A DNA stretch of 64,000 bases, taken from assembly GCF_902497895.1 (NCBI RefSeq), contig NZ_CABVHQ010000030.1, forward strand, positions 1-64,000. Direction: 5' to 3'. The notes beneath the pieces are model-generated. The model was not told where the DNA came from. It saw nothing but the letters and a program-made list of their open reading frames with translations, and did not search any database. The translations under genes were made by a program, and so were the position numbers. The stretch is from Pseudomonas fluorescens. GTDB lineage: Bacteria > Pseudomonadota > Gammaproteobacteria > Pseudomonadales > Pseudomonadaceae. Shown here piece after piece: positions 2,833-37,772 of this stretch (within the stretch, counting starts at the first letter, position 1; each line of letters begins with the position of its first letter).

Positions 2833-3072
2833 TTACCGGTTGATCTTGTCTTTGGTGTCGAACCACGTGCGGCGGGCTTCGATGTACTTATTGTCCGCAC
2901 GCCTTTTGAGTTCCGAGAACTCATTAACGGTCTGAGTCGAAACAGGGTGGTTACTCAAGTGCGCATAGGCTGCTTCGCTGAGCCGATCGGCTTCAAAGAA
3001 CAGCTGACTGCTGAGGTTGAGGGATTGCGGCCATGCAGGGTGGGGCAGTTGCTGGTTTTTTTTTATGGTCAT
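2833..3072 (-). CDS. Small hypothetical protein, paralogue of 2404-2667
   Basis: A 79-residue protein from ATG 3072, preceded by AAGGAA at good spacing; the longer frame to 3123 lacks such a site. It carries the same LNL / LF-EADRLSEAA / RRADNKYIEA pattern as the neighbouring 2404-2667 product. It begins with a lysine-rich MTIKKNQQ stretch. Soluble, function unknown. Confidence 0.55.
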   Translation of the reverse strand: MTIKKNQQLPHPAWPQSLNLSSQLFFEADRLSEAAYAHLSNHPVSTQTVNEFSELKRRADNKYIEARRTWFDTKDKINR

Positions 3073-3319
3073 AGCGACATTCCTTTCTGGCAGAACTCGA
3101 AGGTGAAAATGCTCTCCTGGCATTCTTCAAGTCATGACGCCGAACGAAAGCTCCAGTTCGGTGTGTGGTTATCTATCCTGATAACAACGGCCTATGGCGT
3201 CGAATGAGTTTGTACCAAGTTGAGCCATTTTGCCGCCGTCGGCGATGAGTGGTTTCTGGTACTTTAGTCCATGGTTGGCGAGCTGGAGCGCATCGGCATT
3301 ATTGATAGTGACGAGTCAC

Positions 3320-3766
3320 TTACTCCTGAGTAGCCGGCGGCAAGAACGTGAGATCGAACTGCCTGGCTATCTCCAGTATTCGAGGTAGGTCTTCAGGCAC
3401 TTTGAGCCGATCCACGGCCGCAAAAAACTTGCCTCCTCTGGGATCGGAGACCACTCCGAGCATTTTTGCGGTGGCGCTGATGTTCTTGTAGGCATGTACG
3501 GCGCCACCCGGGATATGCACGTAACCACCGGTTGCCACGGTGGTGGATTTGCCTTCCACGGTGACCTCGACCTGCCCATCGATCACGTAGAACGCCTCGT
3601 CCCAAGGGTGAAAGTGCGGGGGTGGCCCGCCGCCTTGCACTCCCTCCTGGATATGCACTTCGAAGGGTTTGGTGAGATCCCCGCCGGCGAGAATCGTGAT
3701 CGCCTCGCCCACTACATTGACAGGCTCGGGTGTGTTATCCGCTTCGATAATATGGACCGTTCGCAT
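3320..3766 (-). CDS. Cupin-domain protein
   Basis: A 148-residue single-domain cupin. The metal-binding motif appears as PPPHFHPWDEAFYVIDG (about residues 50-66), followed by a second motif with GGYVHIPGGAVHAYKN (about 81-96). The start at 3766 has GGAGAG seven bases upstream; an upstream in-frame ATG lacks a site. Cupins of this kind bind a metal and may act as small dioxygenases, isomerases or sensors; the substrate cannot be told. It is monocistronic. Confidence 0.75.
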   Translation of the reverse strand: MRTVHIIEADNTPEPVNVVGEAITILAGGDLTKPFEVHIQEGVQGGGPPPHFHPWDEAFYVIDGQVEVTVEGKSTTVATGGYVHIPGGAVHAYKNISATAKMLGVVSDPRGGKFFAAVDRLKVPEDLPRILEIARQFDLTFLPPATQE

Positions 3767-36672: not shown

Positions 36673-37036
36673 GGGCTCTTAAAATAATTCTGTCCCCGTT
36701 TTTCCGTGTATTGCGCACAAGCCTAGGACGTTTCCCGCAACCTACGACGCCTTCCGCGAACTTGCACTCAATCCCTCAGCCAGATAACCTTCGCCTGTCG
36801 CTGCAAAATCAGCGACAGGGGTGTGGAAGCCCTTCTTGAGATCTAGGCGCACAAGCGCCCATAAACTGAGCAGGCGCTTTTTTCATGTCTGCTGTTAAGT
36901 TATGGCAGCTGTGCGCGGGGCACTTTCGGGTGCGCCGGGTTCCTAGATCCCCGGTCTTCCACACCTGCGTACAGCTGCCACCCATCATGTGGAAGTGATG
37001 CTGGCAGTTCCTTAATTTAATTCTAGGAATGAGCCA
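36673..37036 (+). ncRNA. Structured leader region upstream of the DUF6124 gene
   Basis: This 364-base gap holds ordered hairpins instead of a gene. A perfect 10-bp hairpin (CCTGTCGCTG/CAGCGACAGG) lies near 36795-36820. A GCGC-type stem with a T-run follows (about 36846-36884, terminator-like). A 14-bp stem (36903-36916 with 36967-36980, one G-U pair) encloses two small hairpins (GGCAC/GTGC and CCGGG/CCCGG). The last structure sits 57 bases before the DUF6124 ATG. A cis-acting RNA is inferred. Confidence 0.45.
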
Positions 37037-37423
37037 ATGAAAAAGATCACCCCCGATCCCCCCGAAACCCCAAGCCTTTCCACCTCCGATTCCCTCGATC
37101 CTGCTCAACTCTCCAAGGTCGCTCAACACGCCCCCTATGACCATTCGCGTAACCCAAAACCTGCTAACCCCATAAGCCATATCTTCACCATTGCCCCTGA
37201 CGTCGACACCGAAACCGTATTGGTCCACGCCTCCGAAACATTTGCCTCCCTCAGTGCGATGATCACTGACCTGGCCTTCGAGCTCGAAGGCTCGCGCCGT
37301 AACAAGGCTCTGGCGATTCAGCAACTGATTGTCCTGGGTGAGCTGTTGGTGAGCCGAGCTCTGGATCACCTCGACACGTCCGATTCTGCGGCGTCCGCGG
37401 TCATTCCAACATCCGCCTACTAA
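37037..37423 (+). CDS. DUF6124 family protein
   Basis: A 128-residue Pseudomonas-type small protein. A Pro-rich N-terminus (KKITPDPPETPSLSTSDS) precedes a conserved FTIAPDVDTETVLVHASETFASLSAM stretch and an amphipathic helix (ALAIQQLIVLGELLVSRALDHL). AGGAATG precedes the ATG. Function unknown. It precedes another small gene 35 bases on, both behind the structured leader. Confidence 0.7.
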   Translation: MKKITPDPPETPSLSTSDSLDPAQLSKVAQHAPYDHSRNPKPANPISHIFTIAPDVDTETVLVHASETFASLSAMITDLAFELEGSRRNKALAIQQLIVLGELLVSRALDHLDTSDSAASAVIPTSAY

Positions 37424-37458: not shown

Positions 37459-37734
37459 ATGGCTCGCTACATACCCATCACCGGCATCGACAACGATTTC
37501 CACTCTCTGCTGATCGACACCGAAGCGCCCCTCAACGTGCTGCACGACACCGCTGCCTACCGCATTGGCGCTGTAACCCAATTGCTGGAAAACCTCGCCA
37601 TGCGCGAGGAGATCAGCAGCGACGCCGTGGTCCTGCATGACTTCGCGCGGGTGCTGGCGATTCCGCTGCGCGATGGCTGTGATTTGCTGGACGTTATCGG
37701 GCGACGTTTGCAGGCGCAGGTTTTGGCGTTGTAA
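37459..37734 (+). CDS. Small hypothetical protein (DUF3077-like)
   Basis: A 91-residue protein with GAGG upstream. It reads ARYIPITGIDNDFHSLLID, then a helical region (VTQLLENLAMREEISSD). Probably in the same family group as other small Pseudomonas proteins of unknown function. It is cotranscribed with the DUF6124 gene, and a terminator follows. Confidence 0.6.
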   Translation: MARYIPITGIDNDFHSLLIDTEAPLNVLHDTAAYRIGAVTQLLENLAMREEISSDAVVLHDFARVLAIPLRDGCDLLDVIGRRLQAQVLAL

Positions 37735-37739
37735 TGAAG

Positions 37740-37772
37740 ATGGGCGACCTCTAGAGGGCGCCCATTTCTTGT
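37740..37772 (+). terminator. Rho-independent terminator
   Basis: ATGGGCGACC-TCTA-GAGGGCGCCCAT stem followed by TTTCTTGTT, right after the 91-residue gene. Confidence 0.75.

Follow-up and report, generated by a model that had tools for sequence, protein, structure and literature searches.

The region in front of the DUF6124 gene of the window (the window being the whole 64-kb stretch of DNA analysed here) is very probably a C4 antisense RNA switch of the P1 immI type, placed before a chromosomal operon of a DUF6124 gene and a gene of the '92-aa' family. The operon would silence itself by means of a C4 RNA acting in trans and of Rho, and the a1–b1 element in its leader would tune C4.

The Rfam scan of the window identified a C4 antisense RNA (RF01695) at 36898–36985 on the forward strand, with 80.8 bits against a gathering score of 45 (E 2.9e-14), and a c4-a1b1 element (RF03163) at 36784–36837, also on the forward strand, with 48.3 bits against a gathering score of 46.7. 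A third family, isrK (RF01394), reached 44.6 bits over the leader and the terminator, below its gathering score of 50. The a' and b' segments of the C4 are complementary both to a1–b1 on its 5' side and to a2–b2 on its 3' side, and b2 lies on the ribosome-binding site of the next gene. These word repeats, a1/a'/a2 and b1/b'/b2, are taken to be the functional core of the region, the features of which are as follows.

36762–36788 (+): probable promoter, TTGCAC 36762–36767 and GATAAC 36783–36788, inferred from the position of P1c4 in P1
36784–36837 (+): c4-a1b1 target element (Rfam RF03163), formed by a 5' hairpin at 36794–36819 and the a1 hairpin
36822–36829 (+): a1 word TGTGGAAG, from the word repeats
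36840–36847 (+): b1 word GATCTAGG, from the word repeats, which runs into the 5' arm of the hairpin listed next
36846–36859 (+): possible antiterminator hairpin GGCGC-ACAA-GCGCC, from folding
36853–36883 (+): intrinsic-terminator-like stem 36853–36859/36873–36879 with a T-run at 36878–36883, which excludes the antiterminator
36898–36985 (+): C4 antisense RNA, expected mature form about 36903–36980 (Rfam, fold and covariation; mature ends placed after P1)
36940–36949 (+): b' segment of C4, TTCCTAGATC, from the word repeats
36956–36963 (+): a' segment of C4, CTTCCACA, from the word repeats and an inverted repeat
36984–36999 (+): a2 hairpin ATCA-TGTGGAAG-TGAT of 4 bp, with the a2 word 36988–36995 in its loop, from the sequence
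37022–37029 (+): b2 word TCTAGGAA, from the word repeats, with the DUF6124 Shine-Dalgarno inside it
37037–37423 (+): DUF6124 gene (PF19619, Pfam E 6.6e-30), rut-like in its first 150 nt (C 0.43, G 0.11)
37459–37734 (+): 91-residue gene of the '92-aa' family without a Pfam match, probable second gene of the operon
37740–37765 (+): inverted repeat (13 nt, 92% complementary), possible operon terminator

The element probably extends beyond position 37036, the end of the stretch first described, since the coding sequence begins C-rich, in keeping with the mechanism. At its other end, a sigma-70 consensus scan of the window region gave no site reaching its threshold. In P1 the -10 box of the annotated promoter P1c4 ends about 6 nt ahead of the leader hairpin, and the most conserved columns 5' of the hairpin were T-35, T-12, A-11 and T-7 (96/99 loci; the alignment is crude, with some rows misplaced).

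A sequence-only reading of this DNA had described a structured RNA leader before the DUF6124 gene pair, consisting of a perfect 10-bp hairpin, a terminator-like GCGC stem with a T-run, and a 14-bp stem closing two hairpins. The hairpin was found at 36794–36803/36810–36819 and the GCGC stem with its T-run at the positions listed above (a simple terminator scan, which covers loops of 3–8 nt only, does not list this stem). The 14-bp stem, 36903–36916/36967–36980, proved to be the outer part, with one G-U pair, of a predicted 17-pair stem (36903–36919/36964–36980), which closes the two hairpins in the predicted fold as well. The predicted fold of the C4 has an energy of -49.1 kcal/mol (z -6.15), and 0/200 shuffles were equally stable. 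The same reading had taken the long stem to function as RNA and proposed a covariance search with a check of covariation; besides the Rfam match to C4, this revealed both-sided changes in 16 of 27 pairs with 96.5% of cells paired, a level reached by 0/500 shuffles (35 C4 sequences, among them those of P1 and of three further phage records; most of the 35 come from one genus and are hence related, and the Rfam structure was imposed).

The leader is therefore structured, non-coding and situated where it had been placed, and the covariation indicates that selection acts on its long stem as RNA, but to call it a cis leader falls short. The long stem is the closing stem of the known trans-acting antisense RNA C4, which, by analogy with P1, would be excised from the transcript. 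The 10-bp hairpin is part of the a1–b1 target, and the GCGC terminator comes after that target, in an arrangement that is isrK-like at a score below gathering. The three structures of the earlier description did not include the a and b word repeats. When the full leader was folded, the minimum-energy fold left C4 intact and the centroid paired the leader with C4.

The order in the window is the same as in immI of P1 and P7, namely the P1c4 promoter, a1, b1, C4, a2, b2 and icd (P1 annotation AF234172). In both P1 and the window, moreover, pairing runs through two words, b2 precedes the start codon and the first gene begins C-rich; as read by eye, P1 also has a 5' hairpin of the same kind and a GCGG-ACAA-CCGC hairpin with a T-rich terminator after b1. 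The distance from the end of the Rfam C4 to the start codon is 47 nt in P1 and 51 nt in the window. The target is different, however, being icd-ant in P1 and DUF6124/92-aa in the window, where these two genes take the place of an antirepressor gene under the C4, and Pseudomonas has many copies per chromosome with diverged addresses. C4 is known from Proteobacteria and phages (Weinberg 2010, PMC2864571), and the element of the window can be named from Rfam alone; the unexpected part is its copy number, its targets and its addresses.

Copies of C4 and the genes under them

The genome of the window, a draft of 173 contigs, contained 17 C4 copies, all above gathering, and 18 a1–b1 elements, 11 of them above gathering; ten of its 13 DUF6124 genes had a C4. 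Two single-contig genomes of the genus, searched together, contained 47 and 36 C4s, of which 47 and 35 were full-length. A partial C4 of 35.6 bits (L167, genome G010) fell below the cut-off and is not counted among the 99 full-length copies that the three genomes have together.

In the survey of 119 genomes of the genus, C4 was detected in 110 at E ≤ 0.001 and in 109 above gathering, with at least 33 copies in the highest count, and DUF6124 in 95 (best 47 candidates scored). At these thresholds no genome had DUF6124 without C4, 15 had C4 only and nine had neither (Fisher p 1.4e-7), and the copy numbers of the two were correlated over the 119 genomes (Spearman rho 0.88, best matches counted), in statistics that ignore kinship. 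Across the class, DUF6124 was present in one of 274 genomes, namely the window's own, and C4 in 18 of 274 (best 15 matches listed). The DUF6124 protein was found to have 28 named relatives, every one of them from Pseudomonas. DUF6124 gave no match on plasmids, and in 35 other genomes of the same genus, with the best five candidates taken from each, no cassette was found beside the flanking genes of the window among the matches listed.

The genes 3' of the 99 full-length C4s included 68 of DUF6124, 14 of the '92-aa' family and three of DUF3077, altogether 85/99. The remaining loci had one Bro-N gene (L042), one distant DUF3077 (L118), or genes that were frameshifted, unassigned or without an ORF; the Bro-N gene was found when only three of the unassigned ORFs were scanned, and 8/100 loci (the 99 and L167) had no ORF of at least 50 aa. 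The start codon lay 44–62 nt past the end of the Rfam C4 in 90 of the 92 loci with an ORF (L167 among them), a spread that is partly selected because starts were chosen by a Shine-Dalgarno and ATG within 20–100 nt. At L042 (genome G062) the Bro-N gene replaces DUF6124 in the C4 cassette, a possible link to phage antirepressor operons.

When the 28 named Pseudomonas loci were gathered through the protein only, DUF6124 proved to have a C4 immediately 5' of it in 27, L305 being the one without C4. In IMG/VR, C4 was present in 79 of the 80 loci kept (of 133); L219 has almost no upstream DNA. Eight IMG/VR loci have their C4 about 550 nt further upstream, and L259, the one of these that was read, has a second DUF6124 gene in between. 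When the C4s of phage records and IMG/VR were classed by the gene that follows, 50 of 138 preceded DUF6124, 16 DUF3077 and four the '92-aa' family; the 138 comprise 134 of 135 matches (L408 6012–6103 was left out) and four named phage loci. Some of the others are followed by genes that resemble antirepressor genes.

Three further observations are minor. A short 'ALNPS'-like ORF resembling that of L091 follows 31 of the 138 classed C4s and is a candidate icd-slot family of phages and satellites. L254, L276 and L284 each have a second, weaker C4-like match (around 2340–2435), some 520 nt 5' of the main one. In L213 (about 3001–3360) a C4–DUF6124 cassette stands between ORFs identified by eye as phage-tail-like, as a moron would.

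Address words

Each C4 matches its own target through two words. In the three genomes the exact a match was 6.9–7.1 nt at the own target and 4.1–4.2 nt at other loci, and the exact b match 6.9–7.5 and 4.4–4.5 nt, respectively; the mean for own addresses was reached by 0/2000 permutations in each genome. With the a and b matches summed, the own target was strictly the best in 14/17, 36/47 and 21/35 loci. Both words matched over at least 6 nt in 12/17, 35/47 and 28/35 own pairs (75/99 in total) against 2/272, 32/2162 and 21/1190 cross pairs. Among loci sharing an a word, the b match was at least 6 nt in 8/10, 18/21 and 19/22 own comparisons and in 1/10, 6/68 and 7/58 cross comparisons. The same test on 27 named loci, from which L305 was left out for having no C4, gave own matches exceeding all 2000 permutations, and nine of the 27 carried the address of the window.

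Altogether 40 distinct a words and 74 distinct b words were present across the 99 loci. The a word occurred in triplicate in 94 of these and the b word in 52, so that b1 is the less general of the two leader words. Of the loci that have both a b2 word of at least 6 nt and a placed start codon (72), b2 fell in the Shine-Dalgarno zone in 70. When applied to the sequence of phage P1, the same word search yielded the repeated words TTGACAG and GTTAGTG.

Duplex energy ranked the own target first in only 9/17, 8/47 and 11/35 loci. These ranks count against clean insulation, and the GC-rich core may explain them in part; exact word length was adopted as the measure of specificity because the ranks by duplex energy were weak.

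Paralogues with 85–100% identical proteins within one genome could cross-match in only one of 25 pairs (32 loci), and in none of the 16 pairs in which both loci passed on their own target; the summed match was 14.3 nt for own and 9.8 nt for cross comparisons. Three loci, L087, L105 and L136, encode identical proteins and have three addresses, two of which share 7 nt of b. Comparison of the sequences thus suggests that addresses change faster than proteins, although gene conversion of the coding parts is possible behind identical paralogues with different addresses. Taken together, the C4 cassettes resemble a large collection of RNA switches, each with wiring of its own.

Multiple C4 copies have been published before for Acinetobacter baumannii, the Group 1 sRNAs of which include 21 C4-like RNAs in one genome, with a variable a' segment and apparent processing at GGW, apart from two GGC cases (PMC5320573). 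In the window the predicted mature ends give a C4 of 78 nt, where about 77 nt would be expected of a C4 released by RNase P, and its stem begins with U-GGC and not with GGW. The sections of that paper that were consulted name no downstream cis targets and suggest phage or trans targets, whereas the Pseudomonas targets lie in cis and co-vary with C4. A Pseudomonas C4 family, its cis targets and its addresses were not found in the titles and abstract openings of the open-licence literature, and as judged from these the Pseudomonas cassette family appears to be new in print.

Proposed silencing and its alternatives

A single transcript would start near the 5' hairpin and continue through a1–b1, C4 and a2–b2 into the genes. 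C4 would be cut out of it, as RNase P does in P1, and would then act in trans, a' pairing with the a2 loop and b' with b2, which is the Shine-Dalgarno, so that the ribosome would be kept off. The C-rich start of the untranslated gene would load Rho and the mRNA would be terminated; in P1, Rho ends the untranslated mRNA. Once C4 has accumulated, the operon would silence itself and any copy with the same two-word address, and as the address words have diverged, most cassettes would control only themselves. The a1–b1 element mimics the target and would probably tune C4, either as an IsrK-like decoy or by attenuation where an intrinsic terminator exists, as in the window. For P1, partial occlusion of the ribosome-binding site by b', specificity through a' and formation of the 5' end by RNase P have been described, and a 4-nt difference suffices to stop the cross-reaction between P1 and P7 (PMC5320573). 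The literature search on translational repression by C4 found no reports.

The composition of the gene starts was checked because the Rho model predicts a C-rich, G-poor loading site. C exceeded G by more than 0.10 in the first 150 nt of 67/68 DUF6124, 13/14 '92-aa' and 3/3 DUF3077 genes and in 0/43 control ORFs (the longest non-overlapping ORFs of the window, not annotated genes), and the third codon positions had C:G of 1718:515 in DUF6124 and 702:677 in the controls, counts that are not independent as the family members are related. The difference was +0.13 in P1 icd and -0.02 in L030, a DUF6124 gene without leader in the window's genome. It persisted in L018 (0.17) and L027 (0.29), which have kept the leader but have no C4. 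This composition is consistent with Rho dependence, although its presence in two genes that now lack C4 counts against it.

Two pairs of loci in the window's genome deserve mention here. L018 and L027 keep the a1–b1 leader and DUF6124 with no C4 found, as if it had been deleted, and are natural tests of C4 loss. In L004 (C4 1501–1588, +) and L012 the DUF6124 gene is apparently frameshifted at long C tracts in the C-rich start, which could be phase variation, decay or an assembly error.

In the P4 satellite CI RNA and in plasmid countertranscript attenuators such as pT181, a small RNA acts on its own leader and ends transcription early. These are RNA families other than the C4 of the window (compared through the Rfam scan of the window alone), but leader attenuation of a similar, countertranscript-driven kind could be the main control also here: trans-acting C4 would bind a1–b1 and thereby remove the GGCGC-ACAA-GCGCC antiterminator, and the terminator would form before C4 and the genes. 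This is compatible with silencing through a2–b2, and as the main control it seems possible but doubtful. In an equilibrium model, which leaves out kinetics, the mean pair probability of the window's terminator stem rose from 0.00 when free to 0.95 with a1 and b1 blocked, and similar shifts were obtained in L004, L010 and L093. Of the 20 loci with a terminator, 10 have a b1 word that overlaps the antiterminator or adjoins it, and the order in P1 is alike when read by eye, with b1, GCGG-ACAA-CCGC and GCGG-TATTTTT. Those 20, however, are out of 99 loci and were identified by pattern, some being doubtful and a few (L156, L163) clear artefacts. Only four of the 15 folded sequences, one of them that of the window, gave a strong switch; it was absent from P1 (0.93 to 0.98) and reversed, with the stem falling, in L161. 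With these frequencies, the attenuator was rejected as a general feature of the family.

No more probable is an activating leader of the IsrK type, in which a short terminated a1–b1 RNA would pair with C4 and relieve the repression. The target words a2–b2 are copied in a1–b1, and while the window leader itself matches isrK below the gathering score, the Pseudomonas phage relatives L169 (51.3 bits) and L170 (50.8) pass it. The isrK–orf45–anrP region of Gifsy-1 in Salmonella likewise has a terminated short leader RNA, a complementary stable downstream RNA (STnc1160) and a small ORF followed by a second gene, and IsrK acting in trans there increases the translation of anrP some 140-fold (PMC4825925). 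In addition to the score of its leader, the window differs from Gifsy-1 in that Pfam does not identify its second gene as an antirepressor. A terminated leader is also hard to reconcile with the 79 of 99 loci in which no terminator was found by pattern.

Immunity against phages, with chromosomal C4s kept for silencing the C4-controlled operons of incoming phages and satellites, is one possibility proposed for Acinetobacter (PMC5320573), and the C4 of L014 in the window's genome shares both words exactly with the phage record vB_Pae_U10. In a comparison of 97 chromosomal C4s with 34 distinct phage-type addresses (L042, L091 and address-less phage-type C4s left out), however, only four double matches occurred against a permutation mean of 8.7, at least four being reached in 4729 of 5000 permutations, and for L420 and L428, which supply two of these matches, a phage operon is not clearly recognisable. 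Anti-phage addressing was accordingly rejected, and such immunity is very improbable. Similarly improbable is that the cassettes are functionless debris of decaying prophages. C4 was first known from phages, and loss of C4 or an apparent frameshift is seen at some loci (L018, L027, L004 and L012). Compensating changes nevertheless maintain structure and words, an ORF of one of the three families is kept in 85/99 loci, and a Pfam scan of four neighbour proteins of the window copy gave ordinary bacterial domains for three and no match for one.

The proteins and the wider meaning of the cassettes

The favoured model of a self-silencing operon brings an uncharacterised leader and two DUF families together in a single system that can be tested, and gives a first handle on DUF6124 and DUF3077 as genes that are probably silent by default, in the icd slot of P1. 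It is by analogy with P1 that the DUF6124 slot suggests a protein kept silent by default.

The predicted model of the DUF6124 protein has a low-confidence N-terminal part and long helices at residues 58–82 and 86–120, with a mean pLDDT of 95–98 over residues 61–110 and a pTM of 0.50. The model of the 91-residue protein, for which Pfam gave no match, has short strands and helices at 25–48 and 56–90 (mean pLDDT 88, pTM 0.76). Foldseek found nothing at E ≤ 0.001 for DUF6124 in PDB and BFVD or for the 91-residue protein in PDB. The window genes had no match in NCBIfam or PADLOC, and the only matches of DUF6124 were phrog_6327 in PHROGs (E 0.071) and PDB sequences at E 1.7. DUF3077 is mentioned in the literature (PMC9630843). 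Profile comparison of DUF6124, DUF3077 and the '92-aa' family was weak (E from 0.01 to 0.28); the better link between the families is provided by the protein of L030, which is above the cut-offs of both DUF6124 and DUF3077, together with the similar two-helix predicted models.

A wider reading can be put forward as a tentative proposal, more likely wrong than right. Pseudomonas chromosomes would harbour a large set of related cassettes that silence themselves, are insulated from one another and combine a C4 switch with a small helical protein. A cassette would speak only on entering a cell lacking its address or on withdrawal of C4, as in zygotic induction. Divergence of the addresses would be driven by selection against silencing by resident copies, and DUF6124, DUF3077 and '92-aa' would be one superfamily acting at that moment. 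Insulation itself may be a target of selection, as is suggested by the paralogues whose proteins are identical while their addresses differ. A genome that has as many as 47 C4 switches (the highest number among those searched singly), most of them with a two-word address, amounts to a natural experiment in orthogonal RNA regulation, and synthetic biology could draw on the cassettes as a library of antisense repressors from nature, varied in their address words.

Linkage to a repressor gene was rejected as a general feature, a PrtR/CI-like ORF being present in only 19 of 221 loci (L030 and 18 IMG/VR loci like DVM-2008). At L030 (580–1704) the gene bridging DUF6124 and DUF3077 lacks a C4, and an S24 peptidase/HTH_3 repressor gene lies divergently to it.
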